Assembly (NCBI RefSeq): GCF_964204645.1
Contig: NC_134033.1
Coordinates: 620,001-684,000 of the forward strand
DNA: 64,000 nt
Direction of reading: 5' to 3'
Origin: Tubulanus polymorphus
Taxonomy: Eukaryota; Nemertea; Palaeonemertea; Tubulaniformes; Tubulanidae
Shown here one piece after another: positions 27,062 through 58,647 of the stretch. Position 1 is the first letter of the stretch, and every line of letters begins with the position of its first letter. Position numbers and translations under genes: made by a program. The notes beneath the pieces are model-generated. The model was not told the DNA's origin. It saw only the letters and a list, made by a program, of their open reading frames with translations, and did not search any database.

Positions 27062-27099
<38 letters not shown>

Positions 27100-35990: not shown

Positions 35991-36481
35991 CTAAAGAGCA
36001 GGAGTAGCAGCCTCCTTTTGGTAAGCCTCATCATCAGCTGGTCCATATTGGTCTGTAACGAAGATCGTATCACCGTTTGCCAGATCAATGACATCAGAAT
36101 TTCCCTTACGATAACGATCAACGATTTTCTCGCCTTCTAAATCAGCTTCTAAAGTGCCTGGTTTTGGTCGTCCGTAACTTAGTCTTCTGCGGGGTGGAGA
36201 CGGATTAGTTTGTATAAACCACCAGCCCAGAATCCATAATCCCCGTAGTACCTTCCTCCATAACCTTCGTGACTTCTTACTCCTAAACCTCCACTTCCTC
36301 CATATCCTCCCATATCATATCCTTCTCCATGACCTCCATAATGCATAGCTTGAACTAAGGAATATCAAATGAATTCTTTCATCGCCTAGTTTTAACAGTG
36401 TTATCGTTGATGAAATGATTTCTGTGTAGACCTACCGAAGGCGACACTGGTCAAAGCAATCACTACCAATAATGTATTCAT
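35991..36481 (-). pseudogene. Array copy A, frameshifted
   Basis: The signal-peptide exon 36436-36481 encodes MNTLLVVIALTSVAFG and the second exon runs 36354-35991. The N-terminal part (AMHYGGHGEGYDMGGYGGSG and on to YYGDYGFWAGGLYK) is in one frame, which stops at 36190-36185 region after HPAED. The conserved core (RRRLSYGRPKPGTLEADLEG and on to DTIFVTDQYGPADD) follows in another frame, ending in EAYQKEAATPAL and a TAG. Compared with copy C, one base is missing between about 36185 and 36220. Its TATA position is also damaged. Either this copy is dying or the assembly has a base error; the degraded promoter favours the first. Confidence 0.7.
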
Positions 36482-36612
36482 AACTTCTTTTGTCGTCAGT
36501 TTGTCTTCCTACAACTACAACAAACAAGAGCAAATAGTTAAACACTATTATGAAAGAAAACATAAATACAACTGAATTTTGTAAACAATGCAAAGAAAAA
36601 TGTTGAACTTAC

Positions 36613-36712
36613 TTTCAATTAGGATATTTCAATCTATCCCTGGTTCTACCCTAAGCTTTCAAACTTAGCTGTATGAACTGTTTGCCATATCGTCCAGAGG
36701 AGTTTAGATAGT
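36613..36712 (-). promoter_or_regulatory. Leader exon and decayed TATA of copy A
   Basis: The usual TATATAAA is replaced by TATCTAAAC. The leader donor is AAA then GTAAGT instead of AAG then GTGAGT, and hairpin 2 of the leader has a terminal C-to-T change that keeps only a G-U pair. Confidence 0.6.
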
Positions 36713-38209
36713 TATCGTATCATTCTTAAATCTTACATAACGTGTCAGTTTTCGTCGGCAACCTGTCAACTCTTAATTTAGTTCGATGGTTGTTTATTCC
36801 GAGGAGTGCGACGGAAAAACCTTAATGAATATTTTCACAGGATATATTTGAACCAGTTGTTCACGTGGTACAGATGTTAAATCTAGTTGAATCAAAAATT
36901 TTAAAACCTTTTTTTTATCGGATAGAGCTAAGAATATAGAGCACATAGCCAGTAAACTAGGGTATTTTTTAACATGTCTTCAGAACCACTTGTCCTCTAT
37001 TGAGATTCCTCAGAATGAAACAAAATAATATAGGCATAAATGGACATTTGTTGTATCCACAGAAAGCATATCGACGTTCCTTCGATTGAAACTGTACGTT
37101 ATTTTTCAAACCGGGCTCGTATAGGCCTATAGGGAGAGGTTCTGGGTGTTCAAATGACACTCTTCCAGCTCAGCCACCAAGATGCCGGCCTTAAAGAAAT
37201 TCTTGCATCGATCTTCAAGGGATTCGCTCATTGGTGAAACATTTGTGTTAGTTGTCGTTCAAAATGTCTTTGAAACTGACTTCATTCCAAGCCATTGCGC
37301 CGTAAAATGATAATTCAGTAATTTAATTTAGTAATTTAATTCTTTAATGACCGATAAACGGTAAGTGAATGGGTAATGATATCAATATAATGGAATGCGC
37401 CGTTGAAAATTGTATCACAGTGAAATCCCAGGGGAGAACTCGATCCCAGGACCTCCGATCTACACACCCTTCGGCGTTTGCGCCTGATATAAAGTCCACT
37501 TTCGTAAATCAAACCACCACAATGACGGACCTGCATCTTTCAATGTTGTTCTGAGCTACTTCTAAATCCCCACGAATTGACGCGAATTGAAACGGTAATT
37601 TCCCAAATGTACAGAAAAAAATCCTCGTCATTTTTGGCCGCTATATTCAGTATTCGGAATACCAACATAAAAATAGCATATGAAGCCTTCATATCCAAAT
37701 ATGTTTCGCTTTCCATCTTTTTATAGTCATCGTGTATGTATTAGATTAGTCAGTTTCTGTCGGCCACTTTTCAACCATTATTTCATAGTTCAATGGTTTC
37801 AGAGTTCAATCGAAATGCTAGTTCATGTGTAACGCGAGTCCTATTCTGTTGAGGTCTCTGTGCAAATTTTTATTAGAAAGAAGAAATGAAAAAATTGGAA
37901 ATTACTTTGTTTTTTGTATTGTTTTCTTTTTTAATCCCTAAGATGTCCTTGTTATGGTAAATTGGCTTCTTAGGCGTCACTTTGAACTTCTATTGTCACG
38001 TTCTATTATTCACATATAATAAGAAAACTAAAACAAGATATTCCATGTAAAACGTAAAATGAAATAAACCGTGTAAGCTTTTATTGATCATTAAAATGAT
38101 CGAGCAACTTTTATTCTACATGAAGGAGGAAACACGATTCATACAAGAATTACTCATTACCTATTATGAACCTTATTTTCCACCACCGAATCCAACATAA
38201 GCCGCATCA
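36713..38209. other. Array gap between copies A and B
   Basis: It holds degraded promoter-flank copies (the GAAAGCATATCGACGTTCCT block at 37065, also near 39305), and at 37400-37480 on the minus strand a tRNA-derived SINE-like piece (CGGAGGTCCTGGGATCGAGT). No gene is supported. Confidence 0.4.
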
Positions 38210-38641
38210 TCAGCTGGTCCATATTGGTCGGTAACGATGGTCATCGTTTGCCAGATCAATGACATCGGAATTTCCCTTACGATAACGATCAACGATTTTC
38301 TCGCCTTCCAAATCAGCTTCTAAAGTGCCCGGTTTTGGTTTTGGTCGTCCGTAATTTGGTCGTCTGCGTGGAAGGCGACGAACTCCAAGGTATCTTCCTA
38401 TATAACCTCCGTGACCTCTTCCTCTATATCCTCTACCTCCAACATAACGTCCACTATAACCTCCCAAATTATATCCTCCTGCATGAATTCCTGGTCCATT
38501 TTCATAATTCTGTGCTTGAACTTAAATATAAGAATATTTCAATGAAATTCCATGAACTTGTTTTAACAATGATTATGATTTCTGTGAAGACTTACCGAAG
38601 GCGACACCGGCCAACACAACCACTACCAATATTATATTCAT
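38210..38641 (-). pseudogene. Array copy B, C-terminal frameshift
   Basis: Signal exon 38596-38641 (MNIILVVVVLAGVAFG) and exon 38210-38520, 118 aa as read. The N-terminus and core up to NSDVIDLAN are normal, but a 5-bp deletion near 38238 (AACGATGGTCATCG where others have AACGATGATCGTATCACCG) shifts the frame to DDHRYRPIWTS and a stop. The normal ending (AYVGFGGGK then stop) still lies intact just downstream at 38170-38205. The TATA box (TTTATAAA near 38861) and leader look functional, so a shortened protein may still be made. Confidence 0.7.
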
Positions 38642-38770
38642 AGCTTCTTTAATCGTCAGTTTGTCTATAAAAACAGCAGGAGCAAATGGCATTATAGAAC
38701 TTTTCGCGGTAGAAAACCTTTATAAAACCGAACATTATAAAACAATGAAAAGAATCGATGTTGAACTCAC

Positions 38771-38869
38771 CTTCAAATGGGATATTTCAATCTATCCCTG
38801 GTTCTACCCTAAGCTTTCACACTTAGCTGTATGAACTGTTTGTCACACTGTCCAGGGCGGTTTATAAAG
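38771..38869 (-). promoter_or_regulatory. TATA box and leader exon of copy B
   Basis: TTTATAAAG TATA variant. Leader hairpin 1 has an A-to-G change in the upper stem (CTAAGTGTGAAAGCTTAG), leaving a 6-bp stem. Confidence 0.65.
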
Positions 38870-39467
38870 TCAACGTATGGATCTTAAATCTTACATAACG
38901 AGTCAGTTTTCGTCGGCAACTTGTCAACTCTTAATTTAGTTCGATGGTTTTTTATTCCGAGGACTGCGAAGGGAATTCCGAAGTCTCTATAGATTTCTCG
39001 ATAAAACCGACAAAAACAGGCGTCACATATAAACCATCAGTTGTTCACGTGTTACAGGGATGTCTTATCCAGTTGAATTTAAAAAGGGTTTTGTGGATAG
39101 AATTTGAGATTCATACAGCCAGTAAACAAACAGAATTTCTAACATGTTTTCAGAATCACATAACTACTTTCGCAATTACTAAATTTGTATGTTCATGTTT
39201 CATATCGTATTCGTTTACTATATTTTTTTAAGATTGCAAAATAAAATACAAAAATAAGACCAAAATATAGGTTTGTATTAAATGGACATAAGATGTGTCC
39301 ACAGAAAGCATATCGACGTTCCTTCGATTGAAACTGTTATTTTTTCTCATGTATCAGGCTGTTATTTAGGGGGTAGATTCTCGGATTCAAACGACCTTTC
39401 CTCTGTCCATCGAGGAAGGTCCATCTAGATCCCGCCGGCCTTAAGAAACTCCTTGCATCGATTTTTA

Positions 39468-39701
39468 AAGAAGGACGAAGAACCAGTTGTCGACGAGGCT
39501 TTCGAGGAGAACGAATAGGTCGGAAACCCAAAACCGCACGACGAAGTCATCGAAGACGCCATTGCCGAGAACGAGGAAACGAAATCGTTCGAAAAGCCAT
39601 TGATCGCCGAAGCTTTGGAAATCAACGAAGACAAAAAGTACCCGAAACATCCACATGAGGTCGCTGAAGAGGTCGTCGACTATAACGAGAAAGGACATTA
39701 A
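39468..39701 (+). pseudogene. Duplicated last exon of the acidic secreted gene, with a nonsense change
   Basis: This is a close copy of 35192-35426 (KKDEEPVVDEAFEENE through DYNEKGH). The codon after FEENE is TAG here and TCG in the parent. No upstream exons of that gene accompany it. The downstream orphan stretch was copied too (40091-40183), so one block of about 0.6-0.8 kb was transferred into the array between copies B and C. Confidence 0.85.
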
Positions 39702-40392
39702 ACAAATGGCAAGAATCATATCATTTATAAAACATGCATTCATGTTACACAAATTTCTTTTATGGCATCAGATTTTGCAAGTTGCTGTTCAATTAATGTT
39801 CAACTCCAATTCAAAAGTCTACAAGGACATTAAACAAATGGCAAGAATCATATTATCTATAAATCATCCAAAATTATGGTAGCCTGCACAAATTTACCTT
39901 TGGCATCTGGCATCAACTTTTACTTTTCAATCTTCAACTACAAATTCAAACGTTGACCTACAGTTTCAGGACTTACATTTTCCAAAAGATCTTATATCTT
40001 CTAATTAAAGCATTACTTCACACTTTACTCGGATATTTACATTAGAAATGTTCGACGTGTAAATAAAATGTTTGTTGATTCTATTTCCAGTGCTGCAACG
40101 GTTGCTTCCAAAGACGCAAAAAATCGGACAACGTCCTAAACGACGATTTGTACTCGAAGAAGTCTCTTGTAAATTGTTATTAGAAATAGAAATGAAAAAA
40201 TCGGAAAATAGTTTCAGTTTTCGTTTATATTGTTTTCTTGTAAACATAACAGTGGTATGTTAACTTCTGTTGTTGTGATGCTTTGTTTTCAACAAAGTTC
40301 AAAACAGTAAAATGAAAACATTCCATGAAAGCTTTCATTGATCATCAAAATGATCGAGCAACTTTATTTCACACGAAAGAAGGACACACAAT

Positions 40393-40920
40393 TCAAGCAC
40401 TAATAATCCCATTACCACCGTCCATATCTACTGGGGGTACATAAGCCGTATCATCAGCTGGTCCATATTGGTCTGTAACGATGATCGTATCACCGTTTGC
40501 CAGATCGATGACATCAGAATTTCCCTTACGATAACGATCAACGATTTTCTCGCCTTCCAAATCAGCTTCTAAAGTGCCCGGTTTTGGTCGTCCGTAATTT
40601 GGTCGTCTGCGTGGACGACGACGAACTGGTCTGTATCCACCACCAGCACTTACTCCATAACCTCCATGGTATCTTCCTATATAACCTCCGTGACCTCTTC
40701 CTCTATATCCTCCACCTCCAACATAACGTCCACTATAACCTCCCAAATTATATCCTCCTGCATGAATTCCTGGTCCATTTTCATAATTATGTGCTTGACC
40801 TTAAATATAAGAATATTTCAAAGAAATTCCATGAACTTGTTTTAACAATGATTATGATTTCTGTGGAGACTTACCGAAGGCGACACCGGCCAACGCAACC
40901 ACTACCAATATTATATTCAT
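40393..40920 (-). CDS. Array copy C, Gly/Tyr-Arg-acidic secreted protein
   Basis: Exons 40875-40920 and 40393-40799 give 150 aa. MNIILVVVALAGVAFG is the signal peptide, with the intron in phase 1 on the final Gly. The mature protein starts QAHNYENGPGIHAGGYNLGG, continues with GYRGRGHGGYIGRYHGGYG, then VSAGGGYRPVRRRPRRRPNY, then the core LEADLEGEKIVDRYRKGN, SDVIDLANGDTIIVTD, QYGPADD, and a private tail TAYVPPVDMDGGNGIISA. No cysteine. A strongly basic middle precedes an acidic end. AATAAA lies at about 40363-40368 on this strand. I recognise no database family; an extracellular structural role is inferred from composition and secretion. Confidence 0.8.
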
Positions 40921-41049
40921 AGCTTCTTTAATCGTCAGTTTGTCTATAAAAACCGAAGAGGCAAATCATATGATAAAACCTTTCGCGGTAGAAAACCTTT
41001 ATAAAACTGAACATTATAAAACAATGAAAAGAATCGATGTTGAACTCAC

Positions 41050-41149
41050 CTTCAAATGGGATATTTCAATCTATCCCTGGTTTTACCCTAAGCTTTCAAA
41101 CTTAGCTGTATGAACTGTTTGGCACATTGTCCAGAGAGGTTTATATAGT
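41050..41149 (-). promoter_or_regulatory. TATA box and leader exon of copy C
   Basis: TATATAAACC near 41139-41148. The leader holds CTAAGTTTGAAAGCTTAG (41088-41105) and GGGATAGATTGAAATATCCC before the GTGAGT donor. The donor-to-TATA distance of about 90-100 bp is the same in all twelve copies. Confidence 0.8.
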
Positions 41150-41784
41150 AAATATACACATCTTAAATCTTACATAACGTGTCAGTTTTCGTCGGCAACT
41201 TGTCAACTCTTAATTTAGTTCGATGGTTTTTTATTCCGAGGACTGCGAAGAGAATTCCGAAGTCTCTATAGATTTCTCTGTTAGCTTTAACTTGTCTTAA
41301 AAATTTGATAAATTGCCGAGAAACGTGAGTCTGACGTGACACATCTTCTGAATACATTCAAGATTTGTTCGGGCACTACGAATGTATATAAAATCGTTAT
41401 CTTTATTCCAAAGAGAAGAAAAGATACGAAACCGTCCTAGCAACGACACAAACACTGTAAAATAGTTATCAGAAAATAGAAATAAGAAGATTGGCAATGA
41501 GTTATAGCCTCCTTTTCTTTATATCGTGTACGTAGACGTAGATCATTTCCCGACTATAACCAGTTCTACGTTTGTGTCACGAAGAACTTTTGTTTTCACG
41601 TTTTGAATAAATAATGCAATATCCTTTTGACACACTAGAATAGATAATAGAAAGTTGGCACAAACGAATCATAATCAGTGATTATTACTTGATTTATTCT
41701 ATTTCACACGAAAGGAAGACACAAGATTTATATTATGCAATTTGAGATTTCCATTTGCTACATTTTTTTTTCTTTCTATCAATT

Positions 41785-42252
41785 TTATTTCCGCCCAAAG
41801 CCGTAAGCCGCGTCATCAGCTGGTCCATATTGGTCAGTAACGATGATCGTATCACCGTTTGCCAGATCGATGACATCAGAATTTCCCTTACGATAACGAT
41901 CAACGATTTTCTCGCCTTCCAAATCAGCTTCTAAAGTGCCCGGTTTTGGTTTTGGTCGTCCGTAATTTGGTCGTCTGCGTGGAAGGCGACGAACTCCATG
42001 GTATCTTCCTATATAACCTCCGTGACCTGTTCCTCTATATCCTCTACCTCCAACATAACGTCCACTATAACCTCCCAAATTATATCCTCCTGCATGAATT
42101 CCTGGTCCAGTTTCATAATTCTGTGCTTGAACTTAAATATAAGAATATTTCAATGAAATTCCATGAACTAGTTTTAACAATGATTATGATTTCTGTGGAG
42201 ACTTACCGAAGGCGACACCGGCCAACGCAACCACTACCAATATTATATTCAT
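41785..42252 (-). CDS. Array copy D, short form
   Basis: Exons 42207-42252 and 41785-42131, 130 aa. It lacks the VSAGGGYRP segment, so GYIGRYHG joins directly to VRRLPRRRPNYGRPKPKPG. The core is identical to copy C and the tail is DDAAYGFGRK. Compared with copy G, the two coding exons appear the same at protein level, apart from one signal-peptide residue. Confidence 0.8.
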
Positions 42253-42381
42253 AGCTTCTTTAATCGTCAGTTTGTCTATAAAAACAGCAGGAGCAAATCA
42301 TATGATAAAACCTTTCGCAGTAGAAAACCTTTATAAAACTGAACATTATAAAACAATGAAAAGAATCGATGTTGAACTCAC

Positions 42382-42481
42382 CTTCAAATGGGATATTTCA
42401 ATCTATCCCTGGTTTTACCCTAAGCTTTCAAACTTAGCTGTATGAACTGTTTGGCACATTGTCCAGAGAGGTTTATATAGT
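42382..42481 (-). promoter_or_regulatory. TATA box and leader exon of copy D
   Basis: Sequence indistinguishable from that of copy C in the TATA and both hairpins. Confidence 0.8.
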
Positions 42482-43116
42482 AAATATACACATCTTAAAT
42501 CTTACATAACGAGTCAGTTTTCGTCGGCAACTTGTCAACTCTTAATTTAGTTCGATGGTTTTTTATTCCGAGGACTGCGAAGAGAATTCCGAAGTCTCTA
42601 TAGATTTCTCTGTTAGCTTTAACTTGTCTTAAAAATTTGATAAATTGCCGAGAAACGTGAGTCTGACGTGACACATCTTCTGAATACATTCAAGATTTGC
42701 TCGGGCACTACGAATGTATATAAAATCGTTATCTTTATTCCAAAGAGAAGAAAAGATGCGAAACCGTCCTAGCAACGACACAAACACTGTAAAATAGTTA
42801 TCAGAAAATAGAAATAAGAAGATTGGCAATGAGTTATAGCCTCCTTTTCTTTATATCGTGTACGTAGACGTAGATCATTTCCCGACTATAACCAGTTCTA
42901 CGTTTGTGTCACGAAGAACTTTTGTTTTCACGTTTTGAATAAATAATGCAATATCCTTTTGACACACTAGAATAGATAATAGAAAGTTGGCACAAACGAA
43001 TCATAATCAGTGATTATTACTTGATTTATTCTATTTCACACGAAAGGAAGACACAAGATTTATATTATGCAATTTGAGATTTCCATTTGCTACATTTTTT
43101 TTTCTTTCCATCAATT

Positions 43117-43620
43117 TTATTTCCGCCCAAAGCCGTAAGCCGCGTCATCAGCTGGTCCATATTGATCAGTAACGATGATCGTATCACCGTTTGCCAGATC
43201 GATGACATCAGAATTTCCCTTACGATAACGATCAACGATTTTCTCGCCTACCAAATCAGCTTCTAAAGTGCCCGGTTTTGGTTTTGGTCGTCCGTAATTT
43301 GGTCGTCTGCGTGGAAGGCGACGAACTGGTCTGTATCCACCACCAGCACTTACTCCATAACCTCCATGGTATCTTCCTCTATAAACTCCGTGACCTGTTC
43401 CTCTATATCCTCCACCTCCAACATAACGTCCACTATAACCTCCCAAATTATATCCTCCTGCATGAATTCCTGGTCCATTTTCATAATTATGTGCTTGACC
43501 TTAAATATAAGAATATTTCAAAGAAATTCCATGAACTTGTTTTAACAATGATTATGATTTCTGTGGAGACTTACCGAAGGCGACACCGGCCAACGCAACC
43601 ACTACCAATATTATATTCAT
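43117..43620 (-). CDS. Array copy E, full-length short form
   Basis: Exons 43575-43620 and 43117-43499, 142 aa. It keeps VSAGGGYRPVRRLPRRRPNY like copy C, but has the AAYGFGRK tail of copies D, F and G: a chimera of the two types. Private changes are GTGHGVYRGRYHGGYG and ADLVGEKI (Val for Glu in the core). Confidence 0.8.
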
Positions 43621-43749
43621 AGCTTCTTTAATCGTCAGTTTGTCTATAAAAACAGCAGGAGCAAATCATATGATAAAACCTTTCGCAGTAGAAAACCTTT
43701 ATAAAACTGAACATTATAAAACAATGAAAAGAATCGATGTTGAACTCAC

Positions 43750-43849
43750 CTTCAAATGGGATATTTCAATCTATCCCTGGTTTTACCCTAAGCTTTCAAA
43801 CTTAGCTGTATGAACTGTTTGGCACATTGTCCAGAGAGGTTTATATAGT
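43750..43849 (-). promoter_or_regulatory. TATA box and leader exon of copy E
   Basis: Identical in the visible motifs to copies C and D. Confidence 0.8.
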
Positions 43850-44484
43850 AAATATACACATCTTAAATCTTACATAACGAGTCAGTTTTCGTCGGCAACT
43901 TGTCAACTCTTAATTTAGTTCGATGGTTTTTTATTCCGAGGACTGCGAAGAGAATTCCGAAGTCTCTATAGATTTCTCTGTTAGCTTTAACTTGTCTTAA
44001 AAATTTGATAAATTGCCGAGAAACGTGAGTCTGACGTGACACATCTTCTGAATACATTCAAGATTTGCTCGGGCACTACGAATGTATATAAAATCGTTAT
44101 CTTTATTCCAAAGAGAAGAAAAGATGCGAAACCGTCCTAGCAACGACACAAACACTGTAAAATAGTTATCAGAAAATAGAAATAAGAAGATTGGCAATGA
44201 ATTATAGCCTCCTTTTCTTTATATCGTGTACGTAGACGTAGATCATTTCCCGACTATAACCAGTTCTACGTTTGTGTCACGAAGAACTTTTGTTTTCACG
44301 TTTTGAATAAATAATGCAATATCCTTTTGACACACCAGAATAGATAATAGAAAGTTGGCACAAACGAATCATAATCAGTGATTATTACTTGATTTATTCT
44401 ATTTCACACGAAAGGAAGACACAAGATTTATATTATGCAATTTGAGATTTCCATTTGCTACATTTTTTTTTCTTTCCATCAATT

Positions 44485-44961
44485 TTATTTCCGCCCAAAG
44501 CCGTAAGCCGCGTCATCAGCTGGTCCATATTGATCAGTAACGATGATCGTATCACCGTTTGCCAGATCGATGACATCAGAATTTCCCTTACGATAACGAT
44601 CAACGATTTTCTCGCCTTCCAAATCAGCTTCTAAAGTGCCCGGTTTTGGTTTTGGTCGTCCGTAATTTGGTCGTCTGCGTGGATGACGACGAACTCCATA
44701 ACCTCCATGGTATCTTCCTATATAACCTCCGTGACCTCTTCCTCTATATCCTCCACCTCCAACATAACGTCCACTATAACCTCCCAAATTATATCCTCCT
44801 GCATGAATTCCTGGTCCAGTTTCATAATTCTGTGCTTGAACTTAAATATAAGAATATTTCAATGAAATTCCATGAACTTGTTTTAACAGTGATTATGATT
44901 TCTGTGGAGACTTACCGAAGGCGACACTGGCCAACGCAACCACTACCAATATTATATTCAT
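44485..44961 (-). CDS. Array copy F, short form
   Basis: Exons 44916-44961 and 44485-44840, 133 aa. Signal peptide MNIILVVVALASVAFG. Keeps YHGGYG but lacks VSAGGGYRP, reading GYGVRRHPRRRPNYGRPKPK. Tail DDAAYGFGRK. The intermediate deletion size shows that the segment between YHG and VRR is lost by in-frame slippage of different lengths. Confidence 0.8.
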
Positions 44962-45090
44962 AGCTTCTTTAATCGTCAGTTTGTCTATAAAAACCAAAGG
45001 AGCAAATCATATGATAAAACCTTTCGCGGTAGAAAACCTTTATAAAACTGAACATTATAAAACAATGAAAAGAATCGATGTTGAACTCAC

Positions 45091-45190
45091 CTTCAGTTGG
45101 GATATTTCAATCTATCCCTGGTTTTACCCTAAGCTTTCAAACTTAGCTGTATGAACTGTTTGGCACATTGTCCAGAGAGGTTTATATAGT
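45091..45190 (-). promoter_or_regulatory. TATA box and leader exon of copy F
   Basis: Leader ends CAACTGAAG before the donor where C-E have CATTTGAAG; hairpins unchanged. Confidence 0.75.
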
Positions 45191-45825: not shown

Positions 45826-46293
45826 TTATTTCCGCCCAAAGCCGTAAGCCGCGTCATCAGCTGGTCCATATTGGTCAGTAACGATGATCGTATCACCGTT
45901 TGCCAGATCGATGACATCAGAATTTCCCTTACGATAACGATCAACGATTTTCTCGCCTTCCAAATCAGCTTCTAAAGTGCCCGGTTTTGGTTTTGGTCGT
46001 CCGTAATTTGGTCGTCTGCGTGGAAGGCGACGAACTCCATGGTATCTTCCTATATAACCTCCGTGACCTGTTCCTCTATATCCTCTACCTCCAACATAAC
46101 GTCCACTATAACCTCCCAAATTATATCCTCCTGCATGAATTCCTGGTCCAGTTTCATAATTCTGTGCTTGAACTTAAATATAAGAATATTTCAATGAAAT
46201 TCCATGAACTTGTTTTAACAGTGATTATGATTTCTGTGGAGACTTACCGAAGGCGACACCGGCCAACACAACCACTACCAATATTATATTCAT
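45826..46293 (-). CDS. Array copy G, short form
   Basis: Exons 46248-46293 and 45826-46172, 130 aa; mature protein the same as copy D (GRGYRGTGHGGYIGRYHG, VRRLPRRRPNY, core, AAYGFGRK). The signal peptide reads LVVVVLAGVAFG as in copy B. Its upstream region switches to the copy B type (TTTATAAA TATA). Confidence 0.8.
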
Positions 46294-46422
46294 AGCTTCT
46301 TTAATCGTCAGTTTGTCTATAAAAACGGAAGGAGCAAATTATATGATAAAACCTTTCGCGGTAGAAAACCTTTATAAAACTGAACATTATAAAACAATGA
46401 AAAGAATCGATGTTGAACTCAC

Positions 46423-46521
46423 CTTCAAATGGGATATTTCAATCTATCCCTGGTTCTACCCTAAGCTTTCACACTTAGCTGCATGAACTGTTTGGCACAC
46501 TGTCCAGGGAGGTTTATAAAG
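46423..46521 (-). promoter_or_regulatory. TATA box and leader exon of copy G
   Basis: TTTATAAAG variant and the CTAAGTGTGAAAGCTTAG hairpin, both as in copy B, so the unit boundary of the C-G duplication lies within or upstream of this gene. Confidence 0.7.
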
Positions 46522-46897: not shown

Positions 46898-47356
46898 TCA
46901 TTTTCCCCTTCCATAAACCGCGGAATCGGCTCGACCATATTGGTCGGTAACGAAGATCGTATCACCGTTTGCCAGATCGATGACATCAGAATTTCCCTTA
47001 CGATAACGATCAACGATTTTCTCGCCTTCCAAATCAGCTTCTAAAGTGCCCGGTTTTGGTCGTCCGTAATTTGGTCGTCTGCGTGGAAGGCGACGAACTC
47101 CAAGGTATCTTCCTATATAACCTCCGTGACCTCTTCCTCTATATCCTCCACCTCCAACATAACGTCCACTATAACCTCCCAAATTATATCCTCCTGCATG
47201 AATTCCTGGTCCAGTTTCATACTGCTGTGCCTGAACTTAAATATAAGAATATTTCAAAGAAATTCCATGAACTTGTTTTAACAGTGATTATGATTTCTGC
47301 TGATGCTTACCCAAGGCGACACTGGCCAACGCAACCACTACCAATATTATATTCAT
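46898..47356 (-). CDS. Array copy H, short form with altered tail
   Basis: Exons 47311-47356 and 46898-47235, 127 aa. The signal peptide ends VALG with a GTAAGC donor, like copy K. N-terminus QAQQYETGPGIHAGGYNLGG; GRYLGVRRLPRRRPNYGRPK; core unchanged to NGDTI, then FVTDQYGRADSAVYGRGK. The tail has lost the GPADD motif. Confidence 0.8.
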
Positions 47357-47485
47357 AGCTTCTTTAATCGTCAGTTTGTCTATAAAAACCGAAGGAGCAA
47401 ATTATATGATAAAACCTTTCGCGGTAGAAAACCTTTATAAAACTGAACATTATAAAACAATGAAAAGAATCGATGTTGAACTTAC

Positions 47486-47585
47486 CTTTAGTTGGGATAT
47501 TTCAATCTATCCCTGGTTCTACCCTAAGCTTTCAAACTTAGCTGTATGAACTGTTTGGTACATTGTCCAGAGAGGTTTATATAGT
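47486..47585 (-). promoter_or_regulatory. TATA box and leader exon of copy H
   Basis: TATATAAACC at about 47576-47584; leader ends CAACTAAAG with a GTAAGT donor. Confidence 0.75.
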
Positions 47586-48288: not shown

Positions 48289-48824
48289 TTATTTTCCACC
48301 ACCGAATCCAACATAAGCCGTATCATCAGCTGGTCCATATTGGTCTGTAACGATGATCGTATCACCGTTTGCCAGATCGATGACATCAGAATTTCCCTTA
48401 CGATAACGATCAACGATTTTCTCGCCTTCTAAATCAGCTTCTAAAGTGCCCGGTTTTGGTCGTCCGTAACTTGGTCGTCTGCGTGGACGTCGACGAACTG
48501 GTCTGTATCCACCACCAGCACTTACTCCATAACCTCCATGGTATATTCCTCTATAAACTCCGTGACCTCTTCCTCTGTATCCTCTACCTCCAACATAACG
48601 TCCACTATAACCTCCCAAATGATATTCTCCTGCATTTATCCCTGGTCCGTTTCCATACTCCTGAGCTTAAAATCGAAACAAAACAGGTAAGAAACACGAA
48701 AGCCAAACTGCATGTATATCACGTCATCATTAGTGATGATGCTGTTATGTGAAGATTGTGATTTCTGTGTAGACCTACCGAAGGCGACACTGGCCAAAGC
48801 AACCACTACCAATATTATATTCAT
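48289..48824 (-). CDS. Array copy I, full-length short form
   Basis: Exons 48779-48824 and 48289-48665, 140 aa. Start of the mature protein is QEYGNGPGINAGEYHLGGYS, distinct from C-H. It has GVYRGIYHGGYG, VSAGGGYRPVRRRPRRRPSY (Ser as in J and L), the invariant core and a tail DDTAYVGFGGGK. The intron is longer and unlike those of C-H, so I sits outside the recent expansion and resembles the ancestor of the short class. Confidence 0.8.
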
Positions 48825-48952
48825 AGCTTCTTTAATCGTCAGTTTGTCTATAAAAACCGAAATGAGTAAATTATGATACGAACTTTCATGGTAGAAAACA
48901 TTTATAAAACTGAACTTCGTAAAACGATGAAAAGAATCAATGTTGAACTCAC

Positions 48953-49052
48953 CTTTAATTGGGATATTTCAATCTATCCCAGGTTCTACCCTAAGCTTTC
49001 AAACTTAGCTGCAAAAAATGTTTGTCACATTGTCCAGGGAAGTTTATATAGT
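48953..49052 (-). promoter_or_regulatory. TATA box and leader exon of copy I
   Basis: TATATAAACT near 49042-49050. Both leader hairpins are intact. Confidence 0.75.
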
Positions 49053-49099
49053 CAATGTATGGATCTTAAATCTAACGTAACTTGTCAGTTTTAGTTGGT

Positions 49100-50030
49100 A
49101 AATTGTCAACTCTTTATTTAGTACGATGGTTGTTTATTGCGAGCACTGCGATGGGACTCCTGAAGTCTCTATAGATTCATCCATAAAACTGACAAAAACA
49201 TGCCTCTCATATGTAACATCAGTTTTTAAACATACTTACAGGATATTTTGAACAGCTGTTTGCGTTGTAAGTGTGACTGATTCAGTTGAATTAGAAAATA
49301 GAAAATCTTATTTTGGAAAGAATTGAGAGGGCGTGTAGTAGTAAATAGAAGTCAGACATCTAAGATTGCTTTATATGAAGAATAAAACATGTTTTAAAGG
49401 TGTGTAAAACATGGAATTCCGCTGTGTCCACATAAAACCATGTCGACGTTCCTTTGACTGATACTGCTATCTCTCATGAAACGTTAAGAATCACAATATC
49501 CGTGACAAAGACTCGATGAGTAACAAATCCCACAATGTGTGAACGAATCTAACAAAGAAATAATTTCTTCCTCTTCTATTTTTTGCCAGTCATTTTAGAC
49601 TAAAGAAGGGTGGTAGCAACCACTCGAAATATTTCTAATTTTTCAATAAACTTTTTAGATTCGTTTTCACAAATTTTTTTTCTCATGCTATCTTTTCATT
49701 CTTCGATGTAGTTCTGTGAACTGCTTCAAATACTTCAGATGGAACTTTGAATCGATTAAATCTAGTCACTATGATTCAGATCACCAAGATATGAATGACA
49801 AGCGTGTAAATATGCCAAAAATCCACTTCGTTTCTTGGGCAATTTTTTTAGAACATCACCATTAGAAACAGCATGTAGAATATGTTTCGCCTTCTTTAAT
49901 CGATGTATTTCCTTTGCTCTGTGGATCTTACAAAGACATTAAATAACTATTCAACTGATTAAATCCATGTAACCGAGCAAAACGTCAATCAATTTTATTT
50001 CATAACACGAAAAACGGACACAAAAATTTC
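49100..50030. other. Gap between short and long array classes
   Basis: No gene is supported. A decayed promoter-flank copy is present near 49130-49200, the GCATATCGACGTTCC-type block is present in altered form near 49425, and an M4 repeat spans 49498-49680 (ACAAAGACTCGATGAGTAAC, CCCACAATGTGTGAACGAAT, then AAGAAGGGTGGTAGCAACCA). Confidence 0.5.
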
Positions 50031-50683
50031 ATCATCCATTATCAGATTCTTTATTCGTCAGTCACGATATTCAACATCAGTTACATTAGATTTACTTTTA
50101 CTTCTGGAATGACGGATTCAAGACTGCAACAGATGATAGAGAGAGAATCGTGTTAGTCATTTTGTAATATTCGTCTTGAGTATAGTGAAGGCTGGTCAGA
50201 AACATGACATTTCTAAAGATAAAGTTGGGCTCTAGGTTAAACTATGCAATGGTCGCCATTAAAACTACCTACGACACAGTTACATAGCGGGGCGAGGTTG
50301 GACAATAGAAGTCACAAAGGGGCATTTTGATGTCCGAAAAAGCGTACTCCCGGACTGAGGGACTAGTTTTGAAGAACTTGTCGAGTCTCAAAAGGACTGA
50401 TGTCCAAAAAGGCCATGTTAAGCGTACTCCCGCTTTGAAAGGAACAAACTTCTTTTTTGACAATATGAAAAGGGGCACTCACTGGATCCACCCCTGTGTT
50501 TTATCAACAAAAACATCATCAACATGATATCCTTGGAAATAAAGTTAGGCCTTAGGTAGATCTATGCAATGATCTCTATCTAAACTAACTATGATACAGT
50601 TACATACCATCAATTTATCCACGATGATAATACAATTTAGATATATATATAATGATTAATTTACCGTTTATCGAAAATCCAGT

Positions 50684-51876
50684 TTATCCTGTCTCCTGGT
50701 CGACATATATCACACCGTCACCGTCATCTTCCTTATCGTCATCTTCATCAACATCATCATCGTCATCATCACCATCAGATCGCCCCATACCATAATACCC
50801 ATCCTCTTCATAATAACCGTCCTCTTCATAATATACCTCATCGACCTCGTATGTCTCCTGGTCGACGTAAGTCTCCTGGTCGACGTATGCCTCTTCGTCG
50901 ACGTATGTCTCCTGGTCGACATATGTCTCCTGGTCGACATAAGCTGGACCATACGCATCTTCTACGACGATTGTATCACCGTTTGCCAGATCGATGACAT
51001 CAGAATTTCCCTTACGATAACGTTTAATGATTTTCTGGCCTTCCAAATCAGCTTCTAAAGTGCCTGGTTTTGGTTTTGGTCGTCCGTAACTTGGTCGTCT
51101 GCGTGGACGACGACGAATTGGTCTGTAGCCACCACCTCCTCCAACATGGCCACCTCCACCGCCACCTCCATAACCTCCTCCTCCAACATGGCCACCTCCA
51201 CCGCCGCCTCCATAACCTCCTCCTCCAACATGGCCACCTCCACCGCCGCCTCCATAACCTCCTCCTCCTACATGACCACCTCCTCCATGGCCTCCTCCTC
51301 CATAACCTCCACCTCCGACATGACCTCCACCATGTCCTCCACCACCACCTCCTCCGTAACCTCCACCATGACCTCTGTGCCCTCCGTGGCTTCCATGACC
51401 TCCTGCTATTCCAACGTATCCCCCACCTGGAGCTGGTCGATCATGACCTCCTCCACCACCGCCATAGCCTCCTACATGTCCTCCATGACCATGACCTCCT
51501 GAAGGACCTGGGCCATAACCACCTGGTCCTGACGGGCCTGGGCCATAATCTCCTGGTCCTGGGCCGTATCCACCTGGTCCCGCTGGGCCTGGGCCATGAT
51601 CTCCTGGTCCTGCTGGGCCTGGACCATAATCTCCTGGTCCTGCTGGGCCTGGTCCATAATCTCCTGGTCCTGCTGGACCTGGCCCATAACCACCCGGTCC
51701 TGGCCGATGATCAGCTGGTCCTGGCCCATGATCAGCTGGTCCATACTGAGCTGAAAGTTGGAGATAGAAATGTATAAGATGCGGTAAATCAAGTAAATCA
51801 GTGTAATTAATGATTTCTGCAGAGACTTACCGAAGGCGACACTGGCCAACGCAACCACTACCAATATTACATTCAT
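50684..51876 (-). CDS. Array copy J, long form with Gly-His repeats and YVDQET tail
   Basis: Exons 51831-51876 (MNVILVVVALASVAFG) and 50684-51750, 370 aa, no cysteine. The mature protein begins QYGPADHGPGPADHRPGPGG, then about six PGPAGPGDYG-type units, a GHGHGG region, and four GGHVGGGGYGGGG units. Then RPIRRRPRRRPSYGRPKPKP and the core LEADLEGQKIIKRYRKGN, SDVIDLANGDTIVVED, AYGPA. The tail is five YVDQET/YVDEEA units, EEDGYYEEDGYYGMGRSDGD and a run of Asp, ending GVIYVDQETG. The whole exon is open and has no internal ATG, as expected from composition. A 3' UTR intron is likely (donor after GATAAACG, acceptor near 50136). Structural secreted protein by inference. Confidence 0.8.
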
Positions 51877-52006
51877 AGCTTTTTGGCGTCTTTACAACCT
51901 CCTGAACAAAAAACAGACAATAGTAAACATTCAGTAGTTACAAAGCAATAGCTTTACTTTTAATGTGGCTTTGTGAAGTAAATGCAAAGAAATTCGTTTA
52001 GCTCAC

Positions 52007-52105
52007 CTCGAATTGGGATATTTCAATCTATCCCTGGTTCTACCCTAAGTTTTCAAACTTAGCTGCATAAACTGTTTAGCGTATCGTCCAGACTGGTTTA
52101 TATAG
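52007..52105 (-). promoter_or_regulatory. TATA box and leader exon of copy J
   Basis: TATATAAACC at about 52096-52104. Hairpin 1 reads CTAAGTTTGAAAACTTAG (52045-52062): the G-to-A change converts a G-U pair into an A-U pair, keeping the stem. Confidence 0.75.
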
Positions 52106-52978
52106 GCGTCCCTTACGTCAGACTCCAGCTTTCATTTTATGCAAAAGCAATATTTCTGTCGGCTATTTGTCAACTTTGATGGCATTCAGTTTGGTTCAAT
52201 TGCTACATTTCGTCGAGGACCGCGAAGGGAACTCCAAATTCTATACGAATTGCTCAATAAAATCGTTAATAAAATGCGTCTCGTGTCGAGCGTCGTTTCT
52301 TACAAATGTTCTATGGACATTTAAAACACTTGTTGGTTCGTGTTCTAGTGGTACAGGTGTTATATACTGACGAATTAAAAACTGATATAATGGAATCTTT
52401 TTAAAGGAATGCATTAAGAGTTTTTTTCGTATCGTTACGTAAGTTTTAGCACAATAAATTACCAATTAGTATTACAATCAGTCGGAATGCTATAGAATAT
52501 TCTAGCCTTTTGCAGAAATACCATCTATCAATTGATTGATTCATATTCTATATAATACCAACTGAGACTCCTCCCAAAGACATTACGTACGAATCTGCAT
52601 CATTGAGATTGAAAGGGCGTCCATCTTCTAGAATTTCGAGCAAAACATTAAGCAAACGTAAAACTAAACTTTCCATGTAACTGAGCACATCATTATTCAA
52701 CTTTATTTCAAACAAAATATTCGTGAATTTCAGATCTATGTCACCAGTTACATTTGGATTTCCCTTTATCTCTCGGCTGTTTTGAGGATGACGGCTGCGG
52801 AACTGGAATAAAAAAGAACAAAGAAAAGAAAGCTGTTAATCATTTCTTTCATCTAAGCTCATCTAGGTAAAGGACAAGAACATATCACATCAGAAAAAAA
52901 AAGATTTCGGCAATAGCGCAATGATCTTGTGAATTCAATGGACTCGAATCAGTGAAATAATCATCTTACCGTCTAAAC

Positions 52979-54410
52979 CTACTCATCGGCATCGGCATCG
53001 GCATCTGCATCATCGGCATCTGCAGCATCGTCAGTAGCGGCATCATCATCGGCATCATCTGCATCAGCATCATCAGCATCATCTTCCACATCAGCGGATC
53101 GACCTATACCCGATGTAGTACCGTAAGTTACTTCCTCGTAAACCTCTGCTTCGTAGCTTCCTTCATCGTCATAGTCTCCAACATCGGCACGACCCTGAGC
53201 TTCACCGTAACTTTCTGCCTCGTAAATCGCCTCGGCGTAACTCGCTTCCTCGTAACTTTTTTCGTCCACGTAGTCTCCAACATCGGCACGGCCCTGAGCC
53301 GCTGCTGCCGCTGCTGCCGCCGCCGCAGCTGCCTGCTCTTCCTCGTATTCTGCCTTTTCGTAATCTTCTTCGGTATCGTACTCTTCAACATCGGCACGTC
53401 CAGCGACCTCTTCAGGGACCTCATAATTATCATTGTCATCATCATCACCCTCTCCATAGGCGTCCTTTATGACAACCTTTCCACCGTCATCCAGATCCAG
53501 TATTTCATCATCTCCCTTACGGTCCTTTTTAACTACTTTCTTGCCTTTCAATCCTCTTTTTAATTGAGCTTTACTTGGTCTTGGATGTCCGTGAATTGGT
53601 GGTCTGTGAAGAATTGGTCCGTATCCAAAGCCTCCTCCTCCACCACCGCCTCCATAACCTCCTCCTACGAAATGACCTACACCATGTCCTCCTCCATAAC
53701 CTTCTCCACCACCTCCTCCATAACCTCCTCCGCCTCCTCCTCCATAACCTCCTCCACCACCGCCTGCGAAATGACCTACACCATGTCCTCCTCCATAACC
53801 TTCTCCACCACCTCCTCCATAACCTCCTCCGCCTCCTCCTCCATAACCTCCTCCGCCGCCTCCTCCATAACCTCCTCCGTGACTCATATGACCTCCTCCA
53901 TAACCTTCTCCGCCACCTCCTCCATAACCTCCTCCATAACCTCCTCCATGATCAAAATGACCTCCTCCATAACCTTCTCCGCCACCTCCTCCATAACCTC
54001 CTCCATGATCAAAATGACCTCCACCATGGCCCATATGGGCATCTGGTCCGTAACCTCCAGCTCCGTGATGGTCCATATGGTCCATATGCCCACCTGGTCC
54101 ATATCCGCCATCTCCTAAGTGGCCCATGTGGTCATCTGGTCCGTAACCATGGTCCATATAGCCTCCTGGACCATCTCCTAAATGGCCTCCAGGTCCGTCC
54201 ATATATCCTCCGCCATGGTCTGGACCTGGGCCATAAGGACCGTAGTCCATATCAGGACCACCATAACCTTGTGCTGAAAATCAAATAACGAAACGTAAGA
54301 AGTTCGTTAACGAAAAACATGTCATGTTATTTTGATGATGATTATGATTTCTGCTGATGCTTACCCAAGGCGACACTGGCCAACGCAATTGCTACCAATA
54401 TTATATTCAT
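52979..54410 (-). CDS. Array copy K, longest and most diverged form
   Basis: Exons 54365-54410 (MNIILVAIALASVALG) and 52979-54273, 446 aa, no cysteine. Mature part: QGYGGPDMDYGPYGPGPDHG, Met/Asp/His-rich GPGGHMDHMDHHG-type repeats, then long runs of GGGYGGGGG with HFDHGG and GHGVGHFAGG blocks. The core is recognisable but diverged: KAQLKRGLKGKKVVKKDRKG, DDEILDLDDGGKVVIKDAYG. The C-terminal third is acidic with three GRADV repeats (GRADVEEYDTEEDYEKAEYE, QGRADVGDYVDEKSYEEA, QGRADVGDYDDEGSYEAEVY), a run of 12 alanines before the second, then GIGRSADVEDD and an Asp/Ala tail. A 3' UTR intron is likely: donor ACG then GTAAGA just after the TAG, acceptor near 52806. Confidence 0.8.
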
Positions 54411-54552
54411 AGCTTCTTTTGTCGTCAGTTTGTCTATAAAACAAAAGCAAATAATATTTAAAACCTTTCATGGGTGAATACGTTCATACAACTAATAATT
54501 CATGCTGAACATTGTAAAACAATGGGGGGGGGGGGAATAATGAAGAACTCAC

Positions 54553-54652
54553 CTTCAATTGGGATATTTCAATCTATCCCTGGTTCTACCCTAAGCTTTC
54601 AAACTTAGCTGCATAAACTGTTTGGCACACTGTCCAGGGCGGTTTATATAGT
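54553..54652 (-). promoter_or_regulatory. TATA box and leader exon of copy K
   Basis: TATATAAACC near 54642-54650. Hairpin 1 at 54591-54608 and hairpin 2 are identical to those of copy C although the two proteins share little sequence. Confidence 0.8.
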
Positions 54653-54699
54653 AATCACTTGCGACAGACCTGCATCTTTTTTAATTCAAGAAGTCATTT

Positions 54700-56880
54700 T
54701 TCTGTCGGGCGTTTGACAACTTTGATGGGAATAAATAAGATTTTGATGGTTATTTTTTTCGAGGGCTGCCAAGGAATTTCAAAGTCTGTCTCGATGTTTT
54801 GATGAAAGCGAATTGTATACTTTCCCCTTAACGTGTGCCTCATTACGAGCATCCTATTTTTTTCTTATTTTCCCTTTGTCGGTACATATAACACACTTGC
54901 GGCTGTGTTTGTTCAAAGTACCATGCTGGCGACCAGGTGTTTTATACTGTTTAGACATTTAAAAAAACAAACATGTATCTACCACTTTCTTGCAATTGTG
55001 AAATTATTATTTGAAAGGTACCATGAACTTATCATCCAATCATCTTTAGCAACTCGTGGCTTTTGTTGTTTTAATGGTCACATTTGAATAAATCTCTATC
55101 TAAAATACATGTTGTTTATAACGCCACATTTGGTTGTAATGGAAACGTATAAGGATTGTTGCATACGACGATGAGTTTTCGATAGTGTGCGCAAAATGGC
55201 AGGACTTCGTGAAGTGCATCAGAACGTTTCCAAATGTGTACACGAAAATAACGAAGACACTGAACTGACCAGGTACATGATGCTTAATGTATCTGAACAA
55301 TGAAATAGTTTTGGACCGCCGTCATTTACAAACGGTTTCATCCTAAAATGCAGTTCTTCAGTTTATCCACAACTTTTTTTATATACGTCATGTAGTTTTG
55401 TTTCAAGGAAAATTTTACAATTAGTTATTTTGCTAAGGTCAAAGTTGACATTAATAGCAAAGTTCCACCACTCCCGGCAACCGCCAAGTAAAAGCTTAGT
55501 CCTAGATTACGTAATGCTTTTATCTTCCGATTTCCCACCAAATTCCGCAATCCACCTCACAATTTTCTGAACAAATCTCATAATAATAGTTCATTTTCAT
55601 TCCATTGTCCGCCGTCAAATATATTTAAAATATGTAGTTACGAAGAACAAATTTACTTATTAGTCTGGGAGCAATCCAATCGAGTGGGAAATGATTGTTA
55701 GAGCAAGACACCTTCAAGTATTAGAAAAATCTTTGACCCAAATTTTCGACTGTTGTCCTGTTGCTATAACGACGGTTTTCTCGGCAACAATTGGTAACTC
55801 TGATACTCAGCCTATGAAATCGGTCCCAGGACTACCAGGTACTTACTCTAATCAGAGTATAATTGATGATAATAAAACAGACATGTCACAGAAGGCAAAC
55901 AAATACAACGGCTCACGTGAACAGCTTAATAATAGAGGAAATATGTTTCGAGGTAATGTCTGACGTTTTGAGTTAATGTCTGGTGTATTGAAGGAAAATG
56001 AAAATTTCTAATTCACTCATCCGTGACCCATGATTATCCGCCTTAATTGCGGAGGTCCTGATATTGCGGCACATAAACCACGGGAGTTGACAGTTTTGTA
56101 TGACAGGACATTAAAGCTCAGATAAAAAGTGCGTGTATTCATGACACGTGTTGTTGTTCGGAATGTTACTGGTTACAGCTGGTTTATATTGCTGTCGAAC
56201 ACGTCACGCATTAGTCACGTCCCAGTCACGTGTTATGGCTGTAGATAAAAACCGATGAACAGTGAGTATGTTCGGAGAAACTTTGTCAAGTGGTCAGCGG
56301 TTAAGGTTTTTGTTCGTAAGCGATATGCCATTTATTTTAACATTGTTTTTCCTCTATGGCTCAATGTCAGATTGAGTTGCTGAAATGGTGTTGGGCATCA
56401 TATTGCGCTAGAGACGAGGAAGACATCAATGAGTAGAACGTTACAGCTTCGTGTTACAGCTAACCTCATTATACGGCAAAATCTCGTTGAAGGTGATATT
56501 TGGGCGTTTAGGTATCATGCTAAAATACATTTCATCTGAAGAATACGTTTGATTATAATCGGCGTGTCGTAGTAATAGATGTTGGGTTACATGTAGAAGC
56601 GGCTGGTGAACTAGGGACGCGCGGATCTGTAGACACGATGCAACTTCTGCACCATCGACCTAGTACACGCTGGTCTTATTCTGTAAACCCCAATTTCAGC
56701 TCATTGCAACTTTTGTAGATTCCTCCGCACAACACTTTCCATCGCGCCACAAACATAGTAAGCCGCGCAATTAATGGGTTTCTGGTGGTACATTTTTATG
56801 CAGGAATACAACGATTTTCTCCCTTTACTCAAGTGTGACAAGAAGACCTAAACAAAACGTATGACGTCACCGAGCAACTA
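54700..56880. other. Gap between copies K and L
   Basis: No gene is supported. A 90-residue plus-strand frame at 55691-55963 has no partner exons or recognisable motif. Sequence is otherwise unremarkable and AT-rich. Confidence 0.4.
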
Positions 56881-57178
56881 ATGCGTTTACTTTTATTTCA
56901 TAAAAAAGAATGAGGACACAGATTCGATATCGACATCCGGCATTAGTTACGTTGCCTCTTTCAATTTCGTCTTTGAAATTTCCTTTGGTGAGGTAGTAGT
57001 TGAAATGATGTACCGCGAAGCTACAAAAAAATAAGAACAGAATACAATATAATTTATTCGAGAAACTAGAATCTGATTATAGAACTAGAAGGATAGCCTT
57101 TAACAATGCAAATATGAGTAATATCATTAGTAAATGGAAATTGGAAAAATGACTTTCGGTATATATAAAAGATGGATG

Positions 57179-57308
57179 GGTTGGTTGCTCAAAAGTTAGC
57201 AGAAGTTAACTTTGCTAACTTCACCAATTCATCCACTACATACCAGTAGACATATTACTAATTAAAATGAGGTAAACTTGAAACTGACTTTTCAGCAACT
57301 GCAACCGC
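57179..57308. mobile_element. Inverted-repeat element, family M3, copy in the copy L 3' region
   Basis: GGGTTGGTTGCTCAAAAGTT and AGCAACTGCAACCGC form the inverted ends. It lies between the stop codon of copy L and its probable 3' UTR exon, i.e. inside the 3' UTR intron. Confidence 0.55.
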
Positions 57309-57399
57309 GGGTCTTTCCATGTCTTGCGATTAAAGAAATGAGAATTTTGATTTTTATTCGTGCGTCAAATTATGGATAACAAGTATAACACCTTACCAT

Positions 57400-58647
57400 T
57401 TATTCATACTCATCATCGTCATCTTCCTCATCGTCGTATGAATCTTCCTCGACGACTGTAACTGTTTCTCCGTCATCGGAACGTCCGCCATAATAGCTTT
57501 CCTCCATTCCGTAAGACTCTTCATCGTCGTAATAGGTCTCCTCGTCGACATAGTCCTCGTAATCTTCGTAATCCTCATAATCTTCTCGATCTTCGTAATC
57601 CTCATAATCCTCATAATCTTCATGATCTTCGTAATCTTCATGATCTTCGTAATCTTCATAATCTTCGTAATCCTCATAATCTTCATGATCTTCGTAATCC
57701 TCATAATCCTCATAATCTTCGTAATCCTCGTCATAACTATCAGCTGGACCATACGCATCTTCTACAATGATCGTGTCACCGTTTGCCAGATCGATGACAT
57801 CAGAATTTCCCTTACGATAACGATCAACGATTTTCTCGCCTTCTAAATCAGCTTCTAAAGTGCCTGGTTTTGGTTTTGGTCGTCCGTAACTTGGTCGTCT
57901 GCGTGGACGACGACGAATTGGTCTGTAGCCACCACCTCCTCCAACATTGCCTCCTCCACCACCTCCTCCAGCATGGCCTCCTCCATAACCTCCACCTCCT
58001 ACATGACCACCTCCATGTCCTCCATGACCTCTTGGTACACCAACATATCCTCCAACTGGACCGGGGCCTTGGGGACCTGGGCCATAAGGTCCAGGACCTG
58101 CTGGGCCTGGGCCATAACCTCCTGGACCACCTGGTCCAACTGGACCTGGGCCATAATCACCTGGTCCAACTGGACCTGGGCCATAATCACCTGGTCCTAC
58201 GGGACCTGGTCCATAATCACCTGGTCCTGGGCCGTATCCTCCTGGACCACTTGGCCCTGCTGGGCCTGGGCCATAACCACCTGGACCACCTGGTCCTACT
58301 GGGCCTGGTCCATAATCACCTGGTCCTGGACCAATAGGACCTGGTCCATAAGGTCCAGGTCCACTTGGACCTGGACCATAATCACCTGGGCCAGGGCCAA
58401 TGGGACCTGGACCGTATCCTCCTGGACCACCGATAGGTCCATGGCCACCGGGACCTGGACCATATTCAGCGGGGCCTGGGCCCATGGCCATAGGACCTGG
58501 TCCTGGTCCATACTGAGCTGAAAGTTAGAGAAAGATATGTTGATTAAGATGCGTTGAACCAAGATTAATCAGTGTCCTTAATGATTTCTGCAGAGACTTA
58601 CCGAAGGCGACACCGGCCAACGCAACTACGACCAATAATATATTCAT
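57400..58647 (-). CDS. Array copy L, silk-like GPGGYGPGP repeat protein
   Basis: Exons 58602-58647 (MNILLVVVALAGVAFG) and 57400-58517, 387 aa, no cysteine. The first 150 mature residues are Gly/Pro/Tyr repeats of the type GPGPVGPGDYGPGPVGPGG, with about 15 YGPGP units. A GGHVGGGGYGGGHAGGGG stretch leads to RPIRRRPRRRPSYGRPKPKP and the standard core (LEADLEGEKIVDRYRKGN, DTIIVEDAYGPADS). The tail is about 17 EDYEDY/EDHEDY units, then VDEETYYDDEESYGMEESYY, GGRSDDGETVTVVEEDSYDD and a Glu/Asp end. A 3' UTR intron is likely (donor ATG then GTAAGG just after the TAA, acceptor TTTTTGTAG near 57022). The G-P-G-G-Y pattern resembles spider dragline and flagelliform silk by convergence; material role inferred. 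Confidence 0.8.

Follow-up and report, generated by a model that had tools for sequence, protein, structure and literature searches.

A tandem array of acidic and basic secreted paralogues with a common core: candidate co-assembling silk-like proteins

In the window analysed herein, a stretch of 64,000 nucleotides (C9:620001-684000; the genome measures 267.8 Mb, is divided among 77 contigs and contains introns), twelve minus-strand genes lie in a head-to-tail row at 35991-58944 including promoters, from the first promoter at 58944 and the first ATG at 58647 down to the last stop at 35991. They encode secreted proteins of two charge classes which share a core of about 45 residues. We read them, at what we consider an even chance, as a lineage-specific family of silk-like matrix or adhesive proteins, the acidic and the basic members assembling together outside the cell into a material that is probably tough or sticky; candidates for it are tube, mucus, cement, cuticle and the organic matrix of a shell.

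Gene plan and charge classes

All twelve genes follow one plan, in which transcript starts and splice sites were deduced from the sequence. A TATA-like box and a stretch of about 98 bp with a 5' untranslated region (5'UTR) exon make up exon 1; in exon 2 the 5'UTR ends and a hydrophobic leader of 15 codons (MNIILVVVALASVAF) is encoded; this signal-peptide exon is followed by a phase-1 intron (75-113 bp), and the remainder of each protein lies in a single large coding exon. The MN-ILVVVALA leader forms a signal peptide in 12/12 (11-residue hydropathy 2.8-3.6), the mature proteins have no membrane segment (maximum 19-residue hydropathy <=0.81), and cysteine occurs in none of the array proteins. 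As a DNA query against the whole genome, the leader/5'UTR exon finds exactly 12 places, all within the array; the core as a protein query, with single sequences of both core types, also finds exactly 12 places, all within the array, and its next-best match outside has an E of about 3-6, which is chance. Since the core and the leader exon are each found in these 12 places, and since the core of g54 aligns with that of g58 at a score of 100 against a maximum of 51 among 5000 shuffles, the array is far beyond chance. Ten of the twelve genes are intact (Table 1), and two are frameshifted: g36, whose reading frame is lost at about 36180-36220, after the Gly-rich part and ahead of the basic stretch, and g38, with a net loss of 5 bp within the core.

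The family comprises three long acidic genes (g58, g54 and g51) and nine short ones, two of the latter being the broken copies. Among the intact copies the two classes are sharply separated, the three long proteins having an isoelectric point (pI) of 4.1-4.6 and the seven short ones of 9.2-9.8, with charges summing to -167 and +42 respectively. The long proteins have 353-429 residues beyond a nominal 17-residue leader and finish with an acidic tail, 84-156 residues long (net charge -64 in g58, -55 in g54 and -36 in g51), and their acidity comes from Asp and Glu, Ser being present at only 6-9 per protein. The intact short genes, g40 to g48, have a short Gly/Tyr/Arg part (GGYNLGGYSGRYVGG...) followed by the basic stretch PRRRPNYGRPKP and then the core, past which they stop after about 8-19 residues.

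The original prediction, made from the letters of this window, had described twelve tandem genes on a single strand at 35991-58647, sharing signal peptide, phase-1 intron and a core that sits between a basic stretch and an acidic tail. The tandem genes and the shared parts are found in 12/12 as described, though two copies are broken. The basic stretch is also present, except in g54 where PRRRP is substituted, while the acidic tail is absent from the short genes and thus belongs to g58, g54 and g51 alone rather than to the family. The two opposite charge classes, the conserved leader exon, the broken copies and the similar-looking neighbouring genes are additions to that prediction.

The common core and its predicted fold

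The core (GTLEADLEGEKIVDRYRKGNSDVIDLANGDTIIVEDAYGPAD) is near-identical in 11 copies, and that of g54 (SKAQLKRGLKGKKVVKKDRKGDDEILDLDDGGKVVIKDAYGEGD) is 39-41% identical to it. Its constraint among most copies is evident from the nonsynonymous and synonymous distances of g58 and g44 (dN 0.07, dS 0.31); g48 and g44 give dN 0 and dS 0.15, and the core of g51 is looser (dN 0.13, dS 0.17). In the AlphaFold2 model of the common core, made with an alignment, one short helix is seen together with three strands (model residues 36-59), in blocks with a predicted local distance difference test (pLDDT) of 70-83. For the g54 core alone, run with no alignment, the model has a helix and two strands plus a third, short bridge, in blocks of up to 84. 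A short helix with a beta meander is therefore the predicted fold. The small beta fold proposed earlier for the core is in agreement with these models (pLDDT about 70-84), and of the flanks supposed to be disordered, the N-terminal basic one is indeed modelled at low confidence (pLDDT about 45-50).

The earlier remark that no named domain with this pattern is known is supported by a Pfam and NCBIfam scan of the array proteins and the core, in which no family passed the curated cut-off, and by a sequence and profile search of the PDB, which gave the core no relative; a strong match to a known domain was not found. DARPin/ankyrin matches of the PDB profile search (E 0.1) are attributed to chance. 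Below the cut-offs, BapA_N is the first Pfam match of both the common core (E 0.0014-0.0022) and the g54 core (E 0.007), in the same register, while 10 shuffled cores have zero matches against Pfam, and the NCBIfam model of BapA_N matches 10/10 members. The core might accordingly be thought a true relative of the BapA prefix-like domain (PF22783, NF033677), known from bacterial biofilm adhesins, obtained by transfer or deep ancestry and serving as an assembly or adhesion module. However, every score misses its cut-off (18.7 against 27 bits for Pfam, 15.2 against 35 bits for NCBIfam), no meaningful relative of the core by sequence was seen in 84,980 prokaryote genomes, viral contigs, phages and plasmids, and the model of the unrelated centromere protein Scm3 scores equally well on the common core. 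Because of this equal score we treat the resemblance as a probable similarity of shape unless proven otherwise, and hold true kinship to be very unlikely. Two Sinorhizobium plasmid matches (E 0.9) were dismissed.

Evolution of the array

The short copies are recent, being repeated as 1.33-1.37-kb units in which, among g40-g44, introns are 96-97% and flanks 97-100% identical, only the 3' flank of g40 departing from this. The likeness of long genes to short ones is limited to three islands, namely exon 1 (86-92%), exon 2 (71-89%) and the basic stretch plus core (about 87-92% across 150-200 bp, with g51 and g44 also matching more loosely, at 82%, over 258 bp), while introns and flanks (upstream and 3'UTR) are mostly about 40-60% identical, with exceptions such as intron 1 of g54 at 75% to g44. 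Across all genes, exon 1 with its TATA-like box and 5'UTR retains 86-97% identity to the g44 copy, and such conservation amid diverged surroundings fits a shared, strong and co-ordinated promoter.

The gene g54 is a mosaic in this respect. Its exons 1 and 2 are 92% and 88% identical to those of g44, and the synonymous sites of its core are saturated, so that young leader and signal exons (54650-54339) stand against an old divergent core (53575-53444). Gene conversion acting locally would account for this pattern, as would a strongly constrained leader or the two together.

Since the short copies are basic, small, tandemly duplicated and recently expanded, one may also think of cationic defence, with the short Arg-rich forms as rapidly duplicated host-defence or mucus antimicrobials and the long acidic forms as their carriers or precursors. 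This seems improbable to us, as a cysteine scaffold is absent, the N-terminal half is Gly-rich and of low complexity, the core is conserved rather than diversifying, and the same core is carried within strongly acidic proteins of 350-430 residues.

Proposed function and comparison with known systems

Silk-like structural proteins (SLSPs) have been defined by a signal peptide, no membrane segment and a Gly share of 25% or more within a window of 80 residues (PMC4944945). Besides their signal peptide and lack of a membrane segment, the intact array proteins reach 25-31% Gly per 80 residues in the short class and 56-79% in the long class, and like the SLSPs they are of low complexity and probably lineage-specific; unlike them, they have a conserved, non-repetitive core common to an acidic and a basic class. 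A scheme may be drawn in which tandem duplication gave rise to two oppositely charged chain types, one short, Arg-rich and basic, the other long and Gly-rich with a polyanionic Asp/Glu/Tyr tail, both carrying the predicted helix and three-stranded meander behind the same basic linker except in one copy. After secretion, the tails and the Arg-rich stretches would attract each other in a condensation resembling complex coacervation, with divalent cations helping; the shared cores would pack together via their beta-sheet edges as a docking element, and the Gly/Tyr segments would give elasticity and Tyr-based cross-links. Disulphides would play no part because cysteine is absent. We infer co-expression, co-assembly, cross-linking and tissue from features read in the DNA itself, namely the gene structure, the two charge classes, the common core, the common promoter and leader, and the Gly content.

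Several points weigh against such co-assembly of silk-like chains. Confidence in the core models is moderate (mean pLDDT 62 and 74, predicted template modelling score about 0.37), and a Foldseek comparison of the core model is without significant match, the top one, S-adenosylhomocysteine hydrolase (27 columns, E 0.26), being put down to chance. Moreover, opposite charges alone do not prove that both classes meet, and tube, shell and mucus are not distinguishable as the material.

The cement of sabellariid worms condenses from oppositely charged proteins via complex coacervation (PMC12621633), and the array resembles its proteins (Pc-1 to Pc-5, Sa-1 to Sa-3) in having Gly-rich basic Tyr proteins and very acidic partners, the two pI classes being secreted Gly/Tyr proteins of opposite charge. 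In the cement the acid is phosphoserine and the partners differ in sequence, whereas in the array the acid is Asp/Glu and the classes are paralogues with a common core; a poly-phosphoserine partner of the Pc-3 type is not seen among the long proteins with their few Ser. Runs of GPGGYGPGP occur in g58 and g51, and runs of GGGYGGGG in g51 and g54. Spider silk has repeats of the GPGGY/GGX type together with spidroin terminal domains; the runs of g58 and g51 are like the former, but no spidroin terminal domains were recognised in the array, and convergence is the natural reading of this likeness. Chitin_bind_4 (PF00379), the domain of arthropod RR cuticle proteins, has no Pfam match in the array proteins; none was found in the genome either, where the positive controls of the search also gave no match.

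Pearl-oyster KRMPs combine a basic with a Gly/Tyr domain, and a role as linkers of acidic to framework proteins has been suggested for them (PMC3120837). By analogy, the array could encode a biomineral matrix, in which the acidic tails would capture calcium and direct the growth of mineral, and the basic Gly/Tyr forms would connect acidic proteins on the mineral with an organic framework, a role proposed for KRMPs and shematrins. The long Asp/Glu tails and the basic plus Gly/Tyr layout, which fits the published KRMP description, speak for it, and KRMPs, shematrins and prismalin-14 are likewise secreted and multigene. The domain order is different, however: KRMPs have a signal peptide, a Lys-rich basic region and a C-terminal Gly/Tyr part, while in the array the Gly/Tyr part is N-terminal, the basic region is mainly Arg, and the predicted beta-meander core and any acidic tail come after it. 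The mollusc haemocyanin domain was not found in the genome, which counts against this reading, although the control genomes gave no match and its absence proves little. On balance we regard a biomineral role as rather unlikely.

Neighbouring genes

Two further genes of the window encode similar acidic, Tyr-rich secreted products that lack the core, and count in favour of co-assembling silk-like proteins. The single-copy g26 is rich in Gly, Tyr and Glu with EEEAYYDNGYGYG repeats, and probably serves the same tissue or material as the array; plus33 lies on the opposite strand. In both of them and in the acidic tails of g58, g54 and g51, GR is followed by S or A and often then by an acidic residue. 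Nearly all Arg of these acidic parts is placed within GR[SA], 4/4 in the g54 tail and 4/6 in g26 (a number reached by 0/2000 shuffles), and the motif may be a common processing site. Its sharing suggests a single secretory tissue for everything in this 27-59-kb stretch.

Together with GRK or GK at the C-terminus, these sites could alternatively mark peptide precursors from which bioactive peptides are released, and several short forms do end in GFGRK. The ends vary though (GFGRK, YGRGK, FGGGK), no repeated, conserved peptide lies between the sites, and structural proteins also contain processing sites, so that a precursor role appears highly improbable.

The expansion of the array has also affected plus33. 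Its last exon and flank have a segmental copy between g38 and g40 (35020-35830 and 39377-40263), which means that this fragment was carried along. In an intron of plus33, a short tandem repeat with a GGGATAGCCTACTCTG-like unit occupies 33830-34190 (+). Elsewhere in the window, ordinary conserved neighbours are recognised by eye: a renal-dipeptidase-like gene at 3149-6266 (+), a TMEM104-like gene at 8085-11465 (-) and an NT5DC-like gene at 17544-22863 (+). Just left of the window, at L082 9123-10000 (-), the motifs GDPHLYTFD and CGDCDGDKTND mark a domain like von Willebrand factor type D, perhaps part of a mucin-like gene beside the cluster.

Table 1. Genes of the array, mapped cores and tail, and the two neighbouring secreted-protein genes (window positions)
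Feature	Position	Strand	Details
g58, long acidic	57400..58944	-	exon 1 58944-58845; ATG 58647, donor after 58602; coding exon 58517-57400; 387 aa; pI 4.1
g54, long acidic, divergent core	52979..54650	-	exon 1 54650-54553; ATG 54410; coding exon 54273-52979; 446 aa; pI 4.2
g51, long acidic	50684..52104	-	exon 1 52104-52013; ATG 51876; coding exon 51750-50684; 370 aa; pI 4.6
g48, short basic	48289..49050	-	140 aa; pI 9.6
g47, short basic	46898..47583	-	127 aa; pI 9.8
g46, short basic	45826..46518	-	130 aa; pI 9.7
g44, short basic	44485..45188	-	133 aa; pI 9.6
g43, short basic	43117..43847	-	142 aa; pI 9.8
g42, short basic	41785..42479	-	130 aa; pI 9.7
g40, short basic	40393..41147	-	150 aa; pI 9.2
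g38, short, frameshift within core	38210..38866	-	
g36, short, frameshift about 36180-36220	35991..36710	-	
Core of g58 (GTLEADLEGEKIVDRYRKGNSDVIDLANGDTIIVEDAYGPAD)	57739..57864	-	
Divergent core of g54 (SKAQLKRGLKGKKVVKKDRKGDDEILDLDDGGKVVIKDAYGEGD)	53444..53575	-	
Core of g51	50939..51064	-	
Core of g44, typical short-form core	44515..44640	-	
Acidic EDY-repeat tail of g58	57403..57738	-	GGRSDDGE site
g26, single-copy Gly/Tyr/Glu-rich secreted protein	27019..28847	-	signal exon ATG 28847; phase-1 intron; EEEAYYDNGYGYG repeats; GRS sites; core absent
plus33, acidic secreted protein	33362..35429	+	three exons joined by eye; GRSDDG site; core absent

The host genome

A largely intact Hox cluster of about 316 kb lies on one strand at C6:5318231-5634753 and runs, as assigned by eye from homeodomains and flanking motifs, in the order Post2, Lox2, Lox4, Antp, Lox5 (with the AKLNGPN parapeptide), Scr, Dfd, Hox3, pb and lab. 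Lox5, Lox4 and Lox2 are lophotrochozoan genes, and their presence, along with Post2, identifies the host as a lophotrochozoan. This is what the original prediction had supposed, and its interpretation as a whole keeps the lophotrochozoan host, the lack of a named domain and the small beta fold, with the acidic tail narrowed to the long subclass. More specifically, Bryozoa and Phoronida are without Lox2 and Scr, and bryozoans also without lab, Hox3 and Antp (PMC10675955), so that either affinity is unlikely here, where Lox2 and Scr are both present. Siboglinidae are without Antp (PMC10192322), and this affinity was dropped as well, the Antp homeodomain having been read by eye. Haemerythrin was not found in the genome by a search whose positive controls did match; the annelid erythrocruorin linker was not found either, but control genomes gave no match and this absence proves little. 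Tandem acetylcholine-binding-protein-like genes lie at C4:21871632-21883521, the exons seen ending without a membrane segment, and no gene near-identical to the Capitella acetylcholine-binding protein of solved structure was found in the genome.

Conclusions

Fast-evolving proteins of low complexity make up the cements, tubes, silks and shell matrices of animals, and the rules of their assembly are poorly known. The silk-like kind is a known one, and lineage-specific members of it are expected to be common; the variant in this array is a shared folded core combined with an acidic and basic split of paralogues at one place. It is possible, though on the doubtful side, that this one locus is a self-contained two-component kit, where polycationic and polyanionic paralogues, produced by recent duplication and keeping a near-identical beta-sheet docking core and promoter/leader, would set the stoichiometry, timing and mutual recognition of an extracellular condensate. 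If so, it would offer a compact system for testing whether a common docking module, beyond charge, drives two-component condensation, and could guide the design of simple underwater adhesives or hydrogels. Even if the core is only lineage-specific, it would still represent a new fold-bearing family within the silk-like class.

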